Assembly: GCA_947463445.1 (NCBI GenBank)
Contig: CANHRS010000007.1
Coordinates: 1 to 63,734, forward strand
Length of the DNA: 63,734 nucleotides
Origin: Flavobacteriia bacterium
GTDB taxonomy: Bacteria; Bacteroidota; Bacteroidia; Flavobacteriales_D; Crocinitomicaceae
Direction of reading: 5' to 3'
Below the pieces are notes generated by a model. The model was not told the origin of the DNA, did no database searches, and worked only from the letters and a program-made list of their open reading frames with translations. Both the position numbers and the translations under genes were made by a program. Position 1 is the stretch's first letter. Each line of letters opens with the position of its first letter. Positions 2,726-11,494 of this stretch are shown piece by piece.

Positions 2726-3970
2726 CTACCCCACCAACAACCCAAACAAGGTCGGATTATTATTCAAATATTCAAACGTGAAATTTAACGCGTTTAATTT
2801 ATCGCAAATTCCTTGAAAATCTTCCTTGTTTTTTAACTCAATACCGACAACTACAGGTCCGCTTTCACGGCTGTTTTTCTTGGAGAATTGGAAATAGGTT
2901 ATATCGTCTTCTTGCCCCAATACTTCGTTCACGAATGCTTTCAAAGCACCTGGACGTTGTGGAAATTGAATCATAAAATAATGTTTCAATCCTTCGTATA
3001 CCAATGAACGTTCTTTGATTTCTTCGGTACGCGTAATGTCGTTGTTACTTCCAGAAACAATACATACTACATTTTTTCCTTTGATTTCCTCTTTGAAAAA
3101 ATCTAAGGCAGAAATGGTCAATGCACCAGCTGGCTCAACCACCATTGCCTCTTCGTTGTACAAACTTAAAATAGTGCTACATACTTTTCCTTCCGGAATG
3201 GTGATCACTTGATTTAAGACATCCTTACAGATTTCAAAATTTAAATCCCCTGCGCGTTTAACCGCTGCACCATCTACAAACTTGTCAATATGATCTAAGG
3301 TTGTAACGATTCCTTTTTCTATCGATGTTTTCATCGAGGGTGCTCCTTCTGGTTCCACACCGATAATAATAGTGTTAGGACTTAATTCTTTAAATACCGT
3401 ACAAACTCCAGCAGCTAATCCACCACCACCAATTGGTACGAATAAATAATCGATTGGTTCTTCTGCATCTGCTAGTACCTCTAAAGCTACCGTTCCTTGA
3501 CCGGCGATCACCATCGGATCATCGAATGGGTGAATAAATGTTAAATTGTTTGCTTTGCCATATGTTACCGCTTCCTGGTATGCATCGTCAAAGGTATCTC
3601 CCGCCAAAACGATTTTAACTTTCGATTTTCCGAATAATTCTACTTGTCTAATTTTTTGTTTTGGGGTAGTGGAAGGCATGTATATGGTACCTTGAATTCC
3701 CAACACCATACAGGAATACGCTACACCCTGTGCATGATTACCCGCACTAGCACATACAATTCCGTTTTGTTTTTGTTCTTCAGAAAGATTACACATTTTG
3801 TTATATGCTCCACGTAGTTTATAGGAACGCACCAATTGTAAATCTTCCCTTTTTAACAAAATATTCGAAGCAAATCGGTCGGAAAGGTTAAGACTTTTCA
3901 TCAAAGGAGTTTTATACGCTACTCCTTCTAATTTACTTTTTGCTTCTTGAACGTGTTGTAGTGTTACCAT
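2726..3970 (-). CDS. ilvA: Threonine dehydratase (biosynthetic), IlvA
   Basis: A PLP enzyme that converts threonine to 2-oxobutanoate, the first committed step to isoleucine. The PLP lysine lies in SYKLRGAYNK (Lys51) and the phosphate loop GGGGLAAG is in mid-protein. A single C-terminal ACT-like domain of about 85 residues makes this the short biosynthetic form. The start chosen is MVTLQHVQEAKSKLEG (414 residues): the 11 extra upstream codons translate an intergenic GTGACGAGT repeat and are unlikely to be coding. It is the last gene of the ilv operon, 65 bp after ilvC. A second copy of its 3' end lies at 726-1013. Confidence 0.95.
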   Translation of the reverse strand: MVTLQHVQEAKSKLEGVAYKTPLMKSLNLSDRFASNILLKREDLQLVRSYKLRGAYNKMCNLSEEQKQNGIVCASAGNHAQGVAYSCMVLGIQGTIYMPSTTPKQKIRQVELFGKSKVKIVLAGDTFDDAYQEAVTYGKANNLTFIHPFDDPMVIAGQGTVALEVLADAEEPIDYLFVPIGGGGLAAGVCTVFKELSPNTIIIGVEPEGAPSMKTSIEKGIVTTLDHIDKFVDGAAVKRAGDLNFEICKDVLNQVITIPEGKVCSTILSLYNEEAMVVEPAGALTISALDFFKEEIKGKNVVCIVSGSNNDITRTEEIKERSLVYEGLKHYFMIQFPQRPGALKAFVNEVLGQEDDITYFQFSKKNSRESGPVVVGIELKNKEDFQGICDKLNALNFTFEYLNNNPTLFGLLVG

Positions 3971-3971
3971 A

Positions 3972-4019
3972 GTGACGAGTGATGAAGTGACGAGTGACGG
4001 CATATTCGTTGCTCGTCAC
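3972..4019. repeat. Short intergenic repeat between ilvC and ilvA
   Basis: GTGACGAGT occurs at 3972-3980 and 3987-3995, followed by the inverted form CTCGTCAC at 4012-4019. Similar CTCGTCAC wording occurs at about 21.33 kb. Probably part of a dispersed hairpin repeat. No function is evident. Confidence 0.5.
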
Positions 4020-4035: not shown

Positions 4036-5514
4036 TTATAATTGATTTATCGCTTTCATATCTGTCATTGCGGCACGCAATACATCCCCCACTTTTTCGA
4101 TGGTGTGTGCACGTAATACCTTGTTTACAGCAATAATTTCTTTATTATCTACTCCATTGTCTTTTCCATCGTTGAAGTTTTTACCAATAACATCCGTATC
4201 GATTTTTGCCATGAAATCAGCTAATAATGGTTTACACGCGTGGTCGAATAAATAACATCCGTACTCTGCTGTATCCGAAATTACGCGGTTCATTTCAAAC
4301 AATTTTTTACGCGCAATCGTGTTCGCGATTAGTGGTGCTTCGTGTAACGATTCGTAGTAAGCAGACTCTTCTTTGATTCCAGTTTCCACCATTACTTCAA
4401 ATGCTAATTCAACACCTGCTCTTACCAAGGCAACCATCAATAAACCATTGTCGAAAAATTCTTGCTCCGTAATTTTTGCTGTTGCTTCTGATTTCTCAAA
4501 CGCTGTGTTTCCAGTTGCAGCTCTCCACGTCAATAAGTCTTTATCATTGTTAGCCCAATCCTCCATCATAGTTTTAGAGAAATGTCCGCTCATGATATCA
4601 TCTTGGTGTTTTTCAAATAACGGACGCATGATTGTTTTCAATTCGTTAGAAAGTTCAAACGCTTTGATTTTTGCTGGGTTTGATAAACGATCCATCATTG
4701 CAGTAATTCCGCCTTGTTTCAAGGCTTCTGTAATCACTTCCCAACCGTATTGAATTAAAGTAGAAGCATAACCGCTTTCAATTCCTTTTTCGATCATTTT
4801 GTCAAAACAAAGGATAGAACCTGTTTGTAACACCCCACACAAAATGGTTTGTTCTCCCAATAAATCCGATTTTACCTCTGCAACAAACGATGATTTTAAG
4901 ACACCCGCTTTGTGTCCACCTGTACCAGCAGCATATGCTTTCGCCAATTTCCATCCTTTTCCTTCTGGATCATTTTCTGGGTGAACAGCAATCAATGTTG
5001 GTACACCAAAACCTCTTTTGTATTCTTCCCGTACTTCCGTACCAGGACATTTTGGAGCAACCATGATTACCGTAATGTCTTTACGAATTTGCATTCCTTC
5101 CTCCACGATGTTGAAACCATGGGAATATGATAAGGTAGCACCTTGTTTCATCAATGGCATAATTGCAGAAACGACACTTGTATGTTGTTTATCTGGTGTA
5201 AGGTTAATTACTAAATCCGCAGTTGGGATTAATTCTTCGTACGTTCCAACTTCAAAACCATTGTCTGTAGCGTTTTTCCAAGAAGCACGTTTTGTTTCGA
5301 TAGCATCTTTACGTAAGGTATATTTCACGTCCAAACCTGAATCTCTCAAGTTTAATCCTTGGTTTAATCCTTGTGCACCGCAACCAACGATGACAATTTT
5401 TTTACCGATCAAGGCATTCACACCATCCGCAAATTGGTTGATGTCCATAAATTCACAAACCCCTAATTGGTTTAATTGTTCTCTTAATGATAGAGAGTTA
5501 AAATAATTTGCCAT
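4036..5514 (-). CDS. ilvC: Ketol-acid reductoisomerase, class II (IlvC)
   Basis: Catalyses isomerisation and NADPH-dependent reduction of 2-acetolactate or 2-aceto-2-hydroxybutanoate. At 492 residues it is the long class II form, as in E. coli, with a duplicated knotted helical domain. The Rossmann motif VGCGAQG is at about residues 43-49. The metal-site segments LGEQTILCG and the later [17 protein letters not shown] are present. It lies 8 bp downstream of ilvN and should be co-transcribed. Confidence 0.95.
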
Positions 5515-5522
5515 GCTATTTA

Positions 5523-6062
5523 TTAAAAAATGATTTTTTCGTTATTCATATCTTCTATGTGTTCTTCCAATGTTTTCATTGGTTTAGAAATTGCTACACG
5601 TCCTGAGCGAACAAACTCTAACAAACCAAATGGTTTCAATTCGGTGAACAATTCTTTGATCTCATCTGGATATCCTGTCTTCTCCAAAATCGTAAATTCA
5701 GATTCGATTGTCAAGATACGCGCATGGTGTGCACGTACAATACGTTCTGCATCACCACCACTCGCTAAAGCAATGGTTGGTAATTTGTACAACGCAATTT
5801 CTTGGTAAACAACCTCATCATCGGAATGATAAAAAGCTTTTACCACATCGATTTGTTTTTCAATTTGTGAAACCACTTTACGAACTGTTTCTTTCGGTTC
5901 ATTCACCACAATCGTGTAACGGTGGATTCCTTCGATTTCAGATTCGGAAGCAGTAATACTTTCGATGTTAATATTTCTACGTGTGAAAATGATCGTGATA
6001 CGGTTCAACATCCCCACGCTATTTTCTGTAAATACGGATATATTATATGTATTGTTTTCCAT
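5523..6062 (-). CDS. ilvN: Acetolactate synthase small (regulatory) subunit
   Basis: 179 residues, typical of the regulatory subunit that activates the large subunit and confers valine feedback. An N-terminal ACT domain ([21 protein letters not shown], residues about 6-80) is followed by the usual C-terminal domain with [18 protein letters not shown]. It is 6 bp downstream of ilvB and 8 bp upstream of ilvC. The symbols ilvN and ilvH are both used for this family. Confidence 0.93.
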
Positions 6063-6068
6063 CTTTTC

Positions 6069-7757
6069 TTATTTTAAACGAATTTCAGATACAGAAGCAC
6101 CTGTTGCTACCATCGGGAATACATTTTCTTCTTGCTCTACCACTACTTCTAATAAATAAGCTGCTGGACTTGTCAACATAGCGTCTAGCGCTTCACTTAA
6201 TTCGGTACGTTGGTCAATTTTTTTCGCTTCGATGTCGTAACCTTTCGCGATTTGCGTAAAGTTTGGATTCACGATATCTGTAAATGAGTAACGTTTTTCG
6301 AAGAATAATTCTTGCCATTGACGCACCATTCCAAGGAAGTTATTATTTAAGATTAAGATTTTAACATCTATCTTAAATTGTAGAATTGTTCCTAATTCTT
6401 GTATGGTCATTTGGAAACCTCCATCTCCAATAATTGCTACAACTGTTTTGGAAGGGTTACCCAACTTTGCACCAATCGCCGCTGGTAATGCAAATCCCAT
6501 GGTACCTAAGCCACCAGAAGTAATGTTGGTGTTTTGAGCTTTGTATTGGTAATAACGTGAGGTAACCATTTGGTGTTGACCTACATCCGTCACAACAATA
6601 GCTTGTCCGTTTGTTTTTTCAGAAAGCATATTCACTACTTCTGCCATTTGTAAACGGTCGTGTTTAGGATGAATTGCATCTTCGATAACTGCTTCTACTT
6701 CTAATTTTTCAGCATCTCTAAATTCTTGTATCCACGATTCGTGTGTACGTTTTTCCACTTTCGTAGTCAGCAATGCTAATGCCTCTTTTGCATCTGCATG
6801 AATCGAAACCTCGTTCGTAACAATTTTATTTAATTCTGCAAAATCAATATCAATATGAATAATTTTTGCTTGTTTCGCATAACGGCTAACATCTCCAGTT
6901 ACACGGTCATCAAAACGCATACCTACTGCTAAAATTACATCCGCTTCATTCGTTAAAATATTTGGCGCATAATTTCCGTGCATTCCTAAATAACCAACAT
7001 ACAATGGGTGATTTGGTGGAAATGCACCCAATCCTAATAAAGTAGAAGCAACTGGAATTCCTGATTTCTCTGCAAAATCCAATAATTCTTGTTCTGCATT
7101 AGCAAGCGTAATTCCTTGTCCTACTAACAAATATGGTTTTTTAGCGGTATTCAATAACGCAGCTGCATCATCAATTTTCGTAGCATCCATTACCGGATTT
7201 GGGAAATAACTACGAATGTCTTTGCATGCTTCGTAATTAAAATCCATCATTCCAAACTGCGCATCTTTGGTGATATCTACCAATACTGGACCTGGTCGAC
7301 CTGAACGTGCAATGAAAAATGCTTTTGCTAAAGCCGCTGGAATATCTTGCGCTCTTTTTACTTGTACGTTCCACTTCGTAACAGGCATCGAAATACCGAT
7401 TACATCTGTTTCTTGGAATGCATCTGTTCCTAACAAATGAGATGCTACTTGTCCTGTGATACAAACCACTGGTGTAGAATCAATCATTGCATCTGCTAAT
7501 CCTGTAATTAAGTTAGTTGCTCCTGGACCAGAAGTTGCAAAACAAACACCACATGTTTCGGATGTACGTGCAAAACCTTGTGCAGCGTGAATCGCTCCTT
7601 GTTCGTGACGCACCAAAATATGTGTTACTTTATCACTGTAATCATACAATGCATCGTAGATTGGCATGATTGCACCTCCAGGGTAACCAAAAATCGTGTG
7701 AACTCTTTCGGCTACTAGGCTTTTTATTACGGCTTCTGAACCTGTTATCTGACTCAT
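6069..7757 (-). CDS. ilvB: Acetolactate synthase large (catalytic) subunit
   Basis: A ThDP-dependent enzyme that joins pyruvate to pyruvate or 2-oxobutanoate, the first step shared by valine, leucine and isoleucine synthesis. 562 residues. The catalytic glutamate is in LVRHEQGAIHAAQGFAR near residue 50. The ThDP/Mg motif begins GDGGFQMTIQELGT and ends with NNNFLGMVRQWQ. It pairs with the regulatory subunit 6 bp downstream. A 364-bp gap with two hairpin repeats separates it from ilvD, so a secondary promoter or processing site is possible. Confidence 0.95.
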   Translation of the reverse strand: MSQITGSEAVIKSLVAERVHTIFGYPGGAIMPIYDALYDYSDKVTHILVRHEQGAIHAAQGFARTSETCGVCFATSGPGATNLITGLADAMIDSTPVVCITGQVASHLLGTDAFQETDVIGISMPVTKWNVQVKRAQDIPAALAKAFFIARSGRPGPVLVDITKDAQFGMMDFNYEACKDIRSYFPNPVMDATKIDDAAALLNTAKKPYLLVGQGITLANAEQELLDFAEKSGIPVASTLLGLGAFPPNHPLYVGYLGMHGNYAPNILTNEADVILAVGMRFDDRVTGDVSRYAKQAKIIHIDIDFAELNKIVTNEVSIHADAKEALALLTTKVEKRTHESWIQEFRDAEKLEVEAVIEDAIHPKHDRLQMAEVVNMLSEKTNGQAIVVTDVGQHQMVTSRYYQYKAQNTNITSGGLGTMGFALPAAIGAKLGNPSKTVVAIIGDGGFQMTIQELGTILQFKIDVKILILNNNFLGMVRQWQELFFEKRYSFTDIVNPNFTQIAKGYDIEAKKIDQRTELSEALDAMLTSPAAYLLEVVVEQEENVFPMVATGASVSEIRLK

Positions 7758-7793
7758 AGTTTTTATTCTAAACGGATATTAAAATTTGCTTAT

Positions 7794-7867
7794 TCTTCGT
7801 TCAACTGCAAAAAATATCGTTTCATTTACTCTAGTAAACTCAACTCAATTTTTCTTGTTTGCCTCAA
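7794..7867 (+). repeat. 74-bp dispersed hairpin repeat, copy 2
   Basis: Starts TCTTCGTTCAACTGCAAAA and ends TTGTTTGCCTCAA, with the central near-palindrome TTTACTCTAGTAAA. It lies in the transcribed gap between ilvD and ilvB. Confidence 0.75.
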
Positions 7868-7923
7868 CTAATCAAATTTTTCTATCCTTAATTTATATTT
7901 TAATAATTATAAAATGTATTTAC

Positions 7924-7997
7924 TCTTCGTTAGAATTCAAAATTTAAAATCTCATTTACTAGAGTAAACTCGCTATTAAATTTTTTGTCTGCCTCGA
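7924..7997 (+). repeat. 74-bp dispersed hairpin repeat, copy 3
   Basis: Starts TCTTCGTT and ends TTTTTTGTCTGCCTCGA, with the centre TTTACTAGAGTAAA. Same length as the other two copies and only 56 bp from copy 2. The bases between the copies and from 7998 to about 8100 are AT-rich with a C-rich run near 8045-8065, and show nothing else. Confidence 0.7.
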
Positions 7998-8100
7998 TTA
8001 AACACATTTTCTATCTCTATATTTTTCTTTAGTTATTTTTGTCATCCCCCTTTCTCCCCCCCTTCAAATGGGAAAAGAAGAATAACAATTTCTCCATCTT

Positions 8101-8125
8101 GTAGCCTGAGGCTCTCGAAGGCTAC
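8101..8125. repeat. Small hairpin over the ilvD stop codon
   Basis: GTAGCC (8101-8106) and GGCTAC (8120-8125) are complementary around a CTCTCGA-type loop that resembles other short hairpins here, for example near 14.06 kb. It has no T-tract, so it is not called a terminator. It could act as a 3' stabilising or processing structure within the operon. Confidence 0.45.
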
Positions 8126-9795
8126 TTATCTGTAATACATCCTTCAGAAGCAGTTGCAACGCATTTTGCATATTTATACAAAATACCTTGAGATACTTTT
8201 AAAGCTGGTTGTTTCCAATTTTTTCTTCGTTCTGCTAATTCTTCGTCGCTTACTTTTAAGTTTAGCGTGTTGTTGACAGCATCAATCGCGATAATATCTC
8301 CATCTTGCACTAACGCAATATTTCCACCATCAATAGCTTCCGGAGTGATGTGACCTACTACAAATCCGTGTGTTCCTCCTGAAAAACGTCCGTCTGTAAT
8401 CAATGCTACACTATTTCCTAAACCAGCACCCATAATTGCCGATGTTGGTTTCAACATTTCTGGCATTCCTGGTCCACCTTTTGGTCCACACATACGAATC
8501 ACTACTACCGAACCAGCTTTGATACGACCATCGTTTAATCCATCGATTACCGTGAATTCATCTTCAAATACAACTGCTGGTCCTTCAAAAAATTCACCTT
8601 CGTGTCCACTAATCTTTGCAACAGAACCTTGAGGAGCTAAGTTACCATACAATACTTGTAAGTGACCTGTAGTTTTTATTGCTTTATCAATTGGCAAGAA
8701 AATTTCTTGCCCTGCTTGGAAACCTGGTAATTCAGCCAAATTTTCAGCAATTGTTTTTCCTGTTACTGTCAAACAATCGCCATGTAACATACCATTTTCC
8801 AACATGTATTTCATTACCGCTGGAGTTCCTCCTACATTATGTAAGTCTTCCATCAATGATTTTCCAGAAGGTTTTAAATCTGCCAACAAAGGAGTTTTAT
8901 CACTCAATTTTTGAATATCATCAATCGTTAATGTGATACCAACAGAATGAGCCATTGCAATCAAGTGAAGTACCGCATTCGTTGATCCACCTAAAACTAT
9001 CACGATGCGAATCGCATTTTCAAATGCTTTCACGGTCATAATATCACGTGGCTTAATGTCTTTTTCTAACAATACGCGAATAGCTCTACCAGCTGCATCA
9101 CATTCGTGCTTTTTATTTGCACTCAAAGCTGGGTTGGAAGAACTATATGGTAAACTCATACCTAATGCTTCAATTGCAGATGCCATGGTATTTGCAGTAT
9201 ACATACCTCCACAAGCACCAGCACCTGGGCATGCATGTTTAATGATTCCTTTAAAATCCTCCGGGGTAATGGTATTGTTCATTTTTTTACCCAAAGCCTC
9301 AAACGCAGAAACGATGTTTAACTTTTCCCCTTTCCATTCACCAGGAGCAATCGTACCACCATACACCATGATTGCAGGACGATTTAGACGACCCATCGCA
9401 ATTAACGATCCAGGCATGTTTTTATCACAGCCCATCACTGCTATTAACCCATCGTAATATTGAGCACCACAAACCGTTTCTATAGAATCAGCAATAATAT
9501 CTCTAGAAATTAAAGAATAACGCATACCATCTGTACCGTTAGACATACCGTCACTGACACCGATTGTATTAAAAATCAATCCTACTAAATCTGCTTCTTG
9601 CACCGACTTTTTAATGTCTTTTGATAAATCATTTAAATGCATGTTACACGTGTTACCTTCATAACCAGCACTTGCGATTCCTACTTGTGCTTTACGCATA
9701 TCCTCATCTGTCAATCCAATACCATATAACATTGCTTGTCCAGCAGGCTGCGTTTCATCTTGCGTGATCGTTTTACTATATTTATTAATTTCCAT
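8122..9795 (-). CDS. ilvD: Dihydroxy-acid dehydratase (IlvD)
   Basis: An Fe-S dehydratase that forms the branched-chain 2-oxo acids. 557 residues, normal for the family. Cluster-ligand cysteines are seen in [10 protein letters not shown] and [16 protein letters not shown], and the C-terminal signature [11 protein letters not shown] is present. It lies 39 bp downstream of ilvE, in the same operon and under the same leader. Confidence 0.96.
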
Positions 9796-9834: not shown

Positions 9835-10716
9835 TTATGCTAGCTCTAATTCTTTATTTAATACAAGATTCATATAATTACGCTGAATAATAGCTCCTTT
9901 TGTATCTTTCCATGCTTTAGGGAAAACATACGTATCTACCGATTCAATTCCTGCAACTTCCGCTGCTGTTCCACAATAGAATGCTGCATCTGCTGTTTTA
10001 ATTTCTTCTGGTGTGAAGAATTTTTCTTCCACTTCAATTCCTAATTTTTTAGCTAAATCAATCACTGTAGCTCGTGTAATTCCTGCTAGAATATTTCCAA
10101 GAGGTGCTGTAAATAACTTTCCATCTTTTTCTAAGAAGAAATTAGCTCCAGGACCTTCGGCAACATTTCCATGCATATCTGTCAATAAAGCTTCGTCGTA
10201 GCCATTTTGTTTTGCTTCCGTAGATGCTAAAATAGAATTGATATAATGACCTACTACTTTTGCTTCTACGTGACACGATTTAGGGTTTGGACGTTGGTAA
10301 GAAGAAATACCTAAACGCAATAATTTATCTCCTAATAATTTACCCCAATCCCAAGCCATGATAACCACATGTACTTCATCGGTTGGTAATAAAGACATAT
10401 TTGCACCTAAATATACCAATGGACGAATATATGCATCTTTCAAATTATTACGTTTCAATACTTCATAGGTAATTTCTTCCAATTCTTGCCACGTATAATT
10501 TAATTTGATGTGCATTTTCTCTGCAGAATAATGCAAGCGATCGTAATGTTCTTTTGCTTTAAAAATTTTAGTTCCTTCCGCTGTGTCATATGAACGAATA
10601 CCTTCAAACACACCATTTCCATAATGCATAGTTTGGTTGTACAAGTTGACCCCAGAATCCGAAGCTTTTACATATTTTCCATCTAAAAAGATAATTGTTT
10701 CGTCGTTAAAATACAT
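9835..10716 (-). CDS. ilvE: Branched-chain amino acid aminotransferase (IlvE)
   Basis: A fold-type IV PLP transaminase for the final step to isoleucine, valine and leucine. 293 residues. The PLP lysine is expected in CHVEAKVVGHYINSI and the substrate region EALLTDMHGNVAEGPGANFF is intact. It is the first structural gene of the operon. About 20 bp upstream of its ATG lies a strong terminator preceded by a Thr/Ile/Val-rich leader peptide, so expression should respond to charging of those tRNAs. Confidence 0.94.
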   Translation of the reverse strand: MYFNDETIIFLDGKYVKASDSGVNLYNQTMHYGNGVFEGIRSYDTAEGTKIFKAKEHYDRLHYSAEKMHIKLNYTWQELEEITYEVLKRNNLKDAYIRPLVYLGANMSLLPTDEVHVVIMAWDWGKLLGDKLLRLGISSYQRPNPKSCHVEAKVVGHYINSILASTEAKQNGYDEALLTDMHGNVAEGPGANFFLEKDGKLFTAPLGNILAGITRATVIDLAKKLGIEVEEKFFTPEEIKTADAAFYCGTAAEVAGIESVDTYVFPKAWKDTKGAIIQRNYMNLVLNKELELA

Positions 10717-10739
10717 AGTTTAAATTTTAATTTTCTGTC

Positions 10740-10777
10740 AAAAAAAAAGCCTTTCTGTGGTTAGACGAGAAAGGCTT
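10740..10777 (-). terminator. Attenuator terminator upstream of ilvE
   Basis: On the minus strand a perfect 10-bp stem (AAGCCTTTCT / AGAAAGGCTT, 10747-10777) is followed directly by a run of nine U, between the leader peptide and ilvE. It sits upstream of the whole operon, where a plain gene-end terminator would make no sense. Confidence 0.9.
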
Positions 10778-10804
10778 AGTATATCAATAATACCCTATCT
10801 CGTC
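10764..10804 (-). promoter_or_regulatory. Antiterminator of the ilv attenuator
   Basis: In RNA sense GACGAGAUAGG (10804-10794) pairs with CCUUUCUCGUC (10774-10764) at 10 of 11 positions, with one U-U mismatch. The second segment contains most of the 5' arm of the terminator, so the two structures exclude each other. The first segment starts within the leader stop codon. A ribosome finishing the leader would cover it, whereas one stalled on Ile or Val codons would leave it free. Confidence 0.82.
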
Positions 10805-10856
10805 AGGTTGTCCAGACAATAATAGTGTTGTTAATAATGACAGTGTTGTTATACAT
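10803..10856 (-). CDS. ilv operon leader peptide (attenuation)
   Basis: A 17-codon ORF reads MYNNTVIINNTIIVWTT. It holds four Ile, two Val and four Thr codons, six of the 17 being end products of the operon and Thr the substrate of IlvA. It has no Leu, matching the absence of leu genes. It ends at the first base pairs of the antiterminator. In a longer reading frame this segment is only the tail, but the preceding part is upstream of the likely promoter. A cis-acting sensor is expected rather than a functional peptide. Confidence 0.85.
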   Translation of the reverse strand: MYNNTVIINNTIIVWTT

Positions 10857-10882
10857 ACTAATTCTACTTTTTACAAGCGTAG

Positions 10883-10890
10883 CAAATATA
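10883..10890 (-). promoter_or_regulatory. Predicted -7 element of the ilv operon promoter
   Basis: TATATTTG on the minus strand fits the Bacteroidota -7 consensus TAnnTTTG and lies 26 bp before the leader ATG. A clear TTG at -33 is not visible. Confidence 0.6.
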
Positions 10891-10987
10891 TAAAATTTGA
10901 TGGAAATACGAAGAAATTGAGAAAATTTATTTTGATAGTGTTTTGACGAACTCAACTTTTTTACTAACTTAAATAAGAAAAGTGAAC

Positions 10988-11494
10988 ATGGAACTATCAA
11001 TTATTCATGAACGAATCCACAAAATTCGTGGTAAAAAAGTAATTCTAGACAAAGATTTAGCGGAATTGTATGGGGTGGAAACGAAATATTTAAATTTAGC
11101 AGTAAAAAGAAACTTAGAAAGATTTCCAAATGATTTTATGTTTCAATTAACAAATGAAGAATGGGTCTCTTTGAGGTTGCAAATTGCAACCTCAAAGAAA
11201 AAAGGTGGTTTACGTTATCTACCTTATTCCTTCACAGAACAAGGTATCGCTATGCTCTCAAGTGTGCTAAATTCTGAAAAAGCAATCCAAGTAAATATTG
11301 CAATTATGCGTGCTTTTGTGCTAATGAGACAATATGCATTAAATTTCCAAGAACTTGCTCTAAAAATTCAGGAACTTGAAAAAACGTATGACAAAACATT
11401 TGACGATGTATTTGATGTGTTAAATCATTTACTCAAAAAAGACAAGCAACTAGAGCAACAAACGAAAAGGGAAAAGATTGGGTTTAAAAAATAG
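10988..11494 (+). CDS. ORF6N-domain DNA-binding protein
   Basis: 168 residues from ATG (a GTG two codons upstream is an alternative). The N-terminal ORF6N domain (about residues 5-95) has typical wording: IRGKKVILDKDLAELYGVET, LKRNLERFPxDFMFQL-like, and LRYLPYSFTEQGIAMLSSVL. A charged helical tail follows. The domain is phage-derived and common in Bacteroidota accessory genes. Its function outside phages is unclear. It is transcribed away from the ilv leader with the start about 100 bp from that promoter, so the two upstream regions overlap. Confidence 0.85.
   Translation: MELSIIHERIHKIRGKKVILDKDLAELYGVETKYLNLAVKRNLERFPNDFMFQLTNEEWVSLRLQIATSKKKGGLRYLPYSFTEQGIAMLSSVLNSEKAIQVNIAIMRAFVLMRQYALNFQELALKIQELEKTYDKTFDDVFDVLNHLLKKDKQLEQQTKREKIGFKK

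Follow-up and report, generated by a model that had tools for sequence, protein, structure and literature searches.

A ribosome-mediated transcription attenuator very probably controls the ilvEDBNCA operon of a flavobacterial genome (Flavobacteriia bacterium, Crocinitomicaceae; assembly GCA_947463445.1), with a response that is presumably directed to isoleucine and valine. The window, by which the whole stretch of DNA analysed is meant, comprises positions 1-63,734 of contig CANHRS010000007.1 (63,734 nt). The original prediction of a ribosome-mediated attenuator for the ilv operon is supported by comparison of upstream regions (62/79 against 0/240 controls), by covariation of the antiterminator, by the spacing between leader codons and antiterminator arm, and by a folding model.

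Organization of the locus and its competing helices

The operon, ilvE-D-B-N-C-A, lies on the minus strand, and all six genes were named by NCBIfam models above their curated cut-offs: ilvE, the first structural gene, at 9835..10716 (TIGR01122 ilvE_I, 292.9 bits against a cut-off of 245.55); ilvD at 8122..9795 (TIGR00110); ilvB, the acetolactate synthase large subunit, at 6069..7757 (TIGR00118); ilvN, the acetolactate synthase small subunit, at 5523..6062 (TIGR00119); ilvC, ketol-acid reductoisomerase, at 4036..5514 (NF003557); and ilvA, threonine ammonia-lyase, at 2726..4003 (TIGR02079). The gap between ilvD and ilvB measures 364 nt in the window (7758-8121); judged by tblastn ends, it is about 230-375 nt in the related loci L012, L014, L015, L017, L018, and L028, and no more than about 15 nt in L016, L019, and L020.

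Along the minus strand, the candidate promoter element TATATTTG (10883..10890), the leader, the antiterminator, the terminator, and ilvE follow in this order, the terminator ending 30 nt before ilvE. The promoter element was named by its match to TAnnTTTG, the Bacteroidota -7 element; 18 of the 62 leaders have this motif no more than 80 nt from their ATG, against 4.2 expected from shuffles, a count in which near relatives figure several times. The leader ORF, MYNNTVIINNTIIVWTT with a TGA stop, occupies 10803..10856 on the minus strand (ATG at 10856, stop ending at 10803), and its 17 codons include four for Ile, two for Val, four for Thr, and none for Leu. Its frame also belongs to a longer ORF with a TTG start. 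The promoter element, the length and composition of the leader, and an antiterminator arm starting inside the stop codon had all been predicted, and each was found in its place on the minus strand.

The antiterminator is formed by 10804-10792 with 10775-10764 (minus strand; 12 pairs, U10797 bulged). Its 5' arm (10792..10804) begins with the second nucleotide of the leader's stop codon, and its 3' arm (10764..10775) overlaps the 5' arm of the intrinsic terminator hairpin (10747..10777, minus strand; 12 pairs, dG -12.8), at the 3' end of which stands a run of nine U (10740..10748). Antiterminator and terminator are mutually exclusive, because 10775-10765 is common to both; competition for one arm was thus borne out as predicted, and the predicted count of 10 of 11 pairs was corrected to 12 pairs with the bulge. 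The antiterminator duplex was calculated at -17.1 kcal/mol (z -4.7), with none of 200 dinucleotide shuffles as good, and the 159-nt leader fold gave z -2.69, with 1 of 200 shuffles as good. Folded as hairpins, the antiterminator reached -14.2 versus -13.3 for the terminator. A simple terminator scan of 10600-11100 listed no site, probably owing to its loop limit of 3-8 nt, which the loop closed by the uninterrupted stem exceeds. In the folding model, no strong anti-antiterminator was predicted and no enterobacterial pause hairpin was evident in the window leader. A UUGU/ACAA stem around codons 13-16 was considered as a 1:2 hairpin and not adopted, since inspection showed it kept in L016 and broken in L017 and L018.

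Conservation of the leader in related genomes

A protein search of named genomes yielded 80 ilvE relatives. According to tblastn, ilvD comes after ilvE in 79 of these loci, the remaining one, L025, stopping too early to show it; ilvB and ilvN come next in the longer loci. The 400 nt before ilvE were scanned for an ATG ORF rich in Ile/Val in any 12 residues and followed by a terminator, with a threshold score of 6, in a set made up of the window and 78 of the 80 relatives (L028 and L085, in which the ilvE start is absent, were left out). A leader and terminator scoring at least 6 were found in 62 of 79 ilvE upstream regions versus none of 240 control starts, for which the top score was 5; the controls were a random draw from 487 first-Met positions of ORFs of at least 150 aa in the same loci, some of which are not real genes. 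The 17 regions scoring under 6 include one that is truncated (L015) and three in which a leader can be made out by eye (L016, L030, and L042); in 11 of the 17 no leader-terminator pair was found. When the scan was extended to 900 nt with a threshold of 5, and L015 was also left out, at least one module was found in 65 of 77 loci, with an opposite-strand match in 1 of 77 (L041). The positive regions belong, judging by the source labels, some of which are metagenomic, to families that include Crocinitomicaceae, Flavobacteriaceae, Weeksellaceae, Chitinophagaceae, and Sphingobacteriaceae, and to one Fulvivirga.

For a sample of the phylum, 118 genomes were searched and IlvD was found at E<=1e-150 in 48, the window's own genome included; 48 stretches before ilvD were taken from the other 47, two of them from one genome. 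A module was present on the sense strand in 19 of these 48 stretches (that of L098 looks spurious) versus 0 of 48 on the opposite strand, and none was found in 29 by a scan that is strict and may miss some. Of 64 leaders, 55 have an antiterminator that beats its shuffles at p<=0.05, and nine do not. Relatives without the leader codons or the competing stems had been named beforehand as evidence against the attenuator; the relatives compared retain leader, terminator, and antiterminator and show compensatory changes. At the level of sequence, these results point to an ilv attenuator that is conserved in Flavobacteriales, Chitinophagaceae, Sphingobacteriaceae, and one or more Cytophagales (Fulvivirga), and that has no Rfam match in the tested loci.

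Covariation of the stems

Covariation was assessed in an alignment (A1) of the window and 15 relatives, which were chosen for arms near the stop codon; out of 18 listed relatives, L013 and L025 were omitted as near duplicates and L067 for its weak antiterminator. MAFFT misplaced the arm in some rows (e.g. L023 and L070) and gapped it in L024, and these rows were kept in the counts. In these 16 chosen sequences, 91.4% of the cells of the seven core antiterminator pairs were paired, compared with 30-67% when the partner was slid by 1-3 columns as a control, and three pairs were changed on both sides, in 12 cells. Three of five covariation measures (cells paired, double-changed cells, and the covariation score) were each equalled in 1 of 500 column shuffles, and the other two were not above shuffles (both-side-changed pairs, 105/500; further pair types, 496/500). 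Related sequences inflate the shuffle statistic, and the slid controls and pair types were relied on instead. The three double-changed pairs fall beyond the ten-pair terminator stem that was counted; in the window, 10766 and 10765, which are 3' bases of double-changed pairs, also make two extra pairs at the terminator tip. Terminator pairs were formed in 96.9% of cells of the same alignment, with two pairs changed on both sides. As judged from A1, the antiterminator is kept through compensatory changes.

These data bear on a first alternative, in which the hairpin is just a terminator, or a stable structure of the 5' UTR, and the short ORF before it is accidental. Small ORFs are common in AT-rich DNA, and the terminator structure is favoured at equilibrium, as such an alternative would have it; against it stand the antiterminator, which covaries, and the Ile/Val-rich leaders, which occur in 62 of 79 regions and at none of the 240 controls. 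Moreover, the upstream neighbour ORF (10982-11494) lies on the plus strand, divergent from the ilv operon, so the terminator at 10777-10747 closes no transcript from that ORF, and none coming from it needs an end here. A plain terminator is accordingly given next to no credence, and the attenuator is retained as the reading of the locus.

Probable signal amino acids

After the first Met, residues in 59 distinct leaders are 26.5% Ile, 12.6% Val, 5.4% Leu, and 6.5% Thr; the leaders are enriched, as those of attenuators should be, for codons of the end products of the operon. Read from these leaders, the conserved control codons are those for Ile and Val, and the main signal would be Ile, with Val second. 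Within the window, the ribosome-geometry model gives Val6, Ile7, Ile8, Ile12, Ile13, and Val14 (10815..10841, minus strand) as candidate control codons.

The leader had been described as a Thr/Ile/Val leader, of which the Ile/Val part holds and the sensing of Thr is doubtful. Thr5 is replaced by Ala in L017 and L018 and Thr11 by Ser in L017, both of the same genus as the window, and Thr16-17 lie in the masked zone, where they would not serve as control codons because a ribosome stalled there already covers the arm in the model. Thr5 and Thr11 could signal, yet they vary within the genus, and Thr was not favoured as the main signal given this variation and the inability of Thr16-17 to signal in the model. 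The relatives' leaders show a Thr peak (0.25-0.36) ahead of the Ile/Val run, 42-47 nt from the arm.

The codon content was also said to suit an operon with ilvA and without leu genes, and this agrees with what was found: ilvA is present, and the LeuA dimer domain was detected in none of 13 genomes from the genus, 6 of which are at least 90% complete and several of which are incomplete. HisG and the TrpE N-terminal domain, sought in a search for further hisG/trpE attenuators, were likewise detected in 0 of these 13 genomes. The absence of the HisG, TrpE, and LeuA domains, in a set with several incomplete genomes, suggests auxotrophy for His, Trp, and Leu in the window's genus, with Ile/Val synthesis retained.

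Spacing between candidate control codons and antiterminator arm

For the spacing analysis, L026 and L027 were dropped (doubtful ORF or hairpin) and rows with identical peptide and arm were merged, which left 59 of 62 leaders. Measured from its first base, the last Ile/Val codon ahead of the arm lies a median of 14 nt from it (interquartile 11.5-15, sd 3.2), whereas the distance from this codon to the stop codon has an sd of 7.7. Relative to the first base of the stop codon, the arm starts at positions between 19 nt upstream and 9 nt downstream, and in many Chitinophagaceae it lies inside the ORF and encodes a recurrent Gly-rich tail. The last Ile/Val codon stands 13-15 nt from the arm in 35 of 59 leaders, versus a shuffled mean of 18% and a maximum among 200 shuffles of 32%; the shuffling was applied to the terminator half alone, which controls for base composition and not for descent, and many rows are related by descent, which leaves fewer independent events. 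The combined share of Ile and Val is 81-92% at 15-32 nt upstream of the arm, 53% at 12-14 nt, 22% at 9-11 nt, and 3% at 6-8 nt; in the few ORFs that continue past the arm start, it rises again at the last two offsets (0.21 of 19 and 0.36 of 11). The drop near the arm is the edge expected if a stalled ribosome must leave the arm uncovered.

Two further alternatives were weighed against these observations. Stalling could be caused by arrest of the nascent peptide instead of by hungry Ile/Val codons, since hydrophobic Ile/Val runs make unusual peptides and some tails recur, such as PALNGGGA in several Chitinophagaceae. The recurrent tail, however, is explained without a peptide function because the antiterminator arm is encoded there, and the leader sequences differ widely among clades while Ile/Val content and arm distance persist; arrest by the peptide itself is considered very unlikely. 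A ligand or protein sensor (riboswitch, T-box, or binding protein), to which the leader ORF would be secondary, is conceivable in that other bacteria have T-boxes or riboswitches at such operons. A ppGpp riboswitch at ilvB is also mentioned in a passage of PMC10272879. At gathering score, however, no Rfam cis-regulatory family was matched in the window or in 10 relatives, the window giving only a distant tRNA and the relatives no match, and a permissive search of 10690-10960 returned four sub-threshold matches, all far under their cut-offs. What is conserved tracks codon identity and arm spacing, not a fixed aptamer, and a sensor of this kind is hardly believable here.

Folding models and proposed mechanism

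In the truncated-transcript model, the RNA ended at the terminator loop and no pairing was allowed within the ribosome footprint, which extended 12 nt downstream from the A site; the model was run on a set of 62 leaders, L026 and L027 being dropped. With a stall at any codon as far as Val14, the window antiterminator had a probability of about 0.70; this fell to 0.06 at Trp15 and to about 0 at Thr16, Thr17, and the stop codon. Varying the footprint edge from 9 to 15 nt shifted this step by one codon either way, with Ile13 remaining free and Thr16 covered. A probability above 0.5 at an Ile/Val stall together with one below 0.2 at the stop codon was obtained in 60 of 62 leaders.

The same model was applied to five E. 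coli leaders as positive controls, of which thrL and hisL behaved as expected and leuL largely so; ilvL was irregular, and trpL failed, apparently through the choice of a wrong arm. Without a ribosome, the antiterminator reached a probability of 0.60 in the window and exceeded 0.5 in 40 of the 62 leaders, by a method that gave irregular results for ilvL and failed for trpL; the E. coli values were 0.00 for leuL, 0.00 for hisL, 0.37 for thrL, and 0.97 for ilvL. Since the antiterminator forms without a ribosome in the window, termination requires translation in the truncated model. Full-length equilibrium folding favoured the terminator in the window at every ribosome position (lowest P 0.51, at Asn10) and gave the expected difference between stall and stop in only 6 of 62 leaders. 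With the terminator favoured at equilibrium in the window, the switch would have to be kinetic and decided during RNA synthesis.

From the elements of the leader and their conservation, covariation, and geometry, we infer that the leader is translated, that transcription can terminate before ilvE, and that the outcome depends on Ile and Val. Transcription would start about 20 nt before the leader, as placed by the promoter motif, and a ribosome would translate the leader behind RNA polymerase. Under a shortage of charged tRNA-Ile or tRNA-Val, the ribosome would stall at Val6-Ile8 or Ile12-Val14 with its leading edge short of 10804, so that the antiterminator arm could take the newly made 5' half of the terminator and polymerase would read through into ilvE. 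When charged tRNAs are available, the ribosome would reach the stop codon and cover the arm, the terminator would form, and transcription would stop before ilvE.

Serial modules in relatives

The window has one module in the 900-nt scan, and at least two modules were found in 9 of 77 loci, an extra module in L016 having been judged spurious. Three modules are present in Flavobacterium limnosediminis (L034), Aequorivita sinensis (L041), and Myroides phaeus (L059), and two in L029, L031, L032, L052, and L055; two are also present in L102, L105, and L123 of the phylum sample. The serial modules are all Ile/Val-rich. Among the 11 serial loci, the antiterminator is always weakest in the module farthest upstream, which misses p 0.05 in L031, L034, and L052. 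The Salmonella mgtCBR leader, as described in a part of PMC3641672, resembles these loci in carrying more than one leader-ORF attenuator, but its two modules respond to different signals, whereas the modules of the serial relatives are all rich in Ile and Val.

Comparison with known attenuators

Leader-peptide attenuation is a textbook mechanism in Proteobacteria. The enterobacterial leaders thrL, ilvL, leuL, hisL, and trpL share with the window codons for the product of the pathway and an antiterminator and terminator with a common arm, and in the model a ribosome at the stop codon of thrL, leuL, and hisL masks the antiterminator, as it does in the window. The window differs from them in phylum, in its 17-codon leader, and in an arm that starts in the stop codon; unlike the enterobacterial type, it has no strong predicted anti-antiterminator (compare the probability without a ribosome given above). 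The E. coli ilvL leader (MTALLRVISLVVISVVVIIIPPCGAALGRGKA) is much like the leaders of Chitinophagaceae, and those leaders, for example IIIVVVIIIPALNGGGALM, in turn resemble E. coli IlvL (VVVIIIPPCGAAL, L152); IlvL-like leaders were seen in L040, L043, L045, L047, L064-L066, L069, L071, and others. Convergence under the same constraint seems the likeliest explanation of this likeness.

The Corynebacterium ilvBNC attenuator, or ilvB-II motif, as portrayed in parts of PMC11857589 and PMC10272879, resembles the window in having a short uORF rich in branched-chain amino acids (usually 15-17 residues), a terminator and antiterminator, and an ilv operon downstream; it differs in phylum, in having ilvB as the first gene, and in an extra hairpin, H1, which overlaps the leader ORF and is described as an anti-antiterminator whose role is uncertain or one of pausing. 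Among Bacteroidota, PMC9723704 reports strong clues to leader-peptide attenuation upstream of amino acid biosynthesis operons in Flavobacterium psychrophilum; the elements named there are pheA and hisG, the term 'ilv' is absent from the main text, and no phylum-wide comparison was seen there. Small ORFs reminiscent of leader peptides are mentioned for Bacteroides thetaiotaomicron in a section of PMC7366714. A 2010 survey states that before its own case in Firmicutes no leader-peptide attenuation had been shown beyond Proteobacteria and Actinobacteria, the atypical ermC leader apart (PMC2965389).

No paper on an ilv attenuator in Bacteroidota was found in the open-licence PMC literature. Earlier work (Lopatovskaya 2010) may already predict some Bacteroidetes leaders. 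The class of mechanism is known, and what appears to be new, on the basis of these comparisons, is strong comparative evidence for it in the ilv operon across Bacteroidota, the rule of arm spacing, and the serial arrangement in relatives.

As a broader and more tentative proposal, which we hold to be possible but somewhat short of probable, Bacteroidota may have an old and widespread family of Ile/Val attenuators of their own that use the ribosome as a ruler. Such a family would work with two helices and without an anti-antiterminator, its arm would lie one ribosome half-footprint past the final control codon, and several lineages would combine two or three modules with the same signal on a single leader, multiplying termination into a steep switch. 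Serial attenuators with the same signal would provide a testable case of multi-step termination control. As a natural collection, the leaders allow ribosome footprint, arm position, and codon placement to be deduced from their sequences, and they predict how the synthesis of Ile and Val may be controlled in a major phylum.
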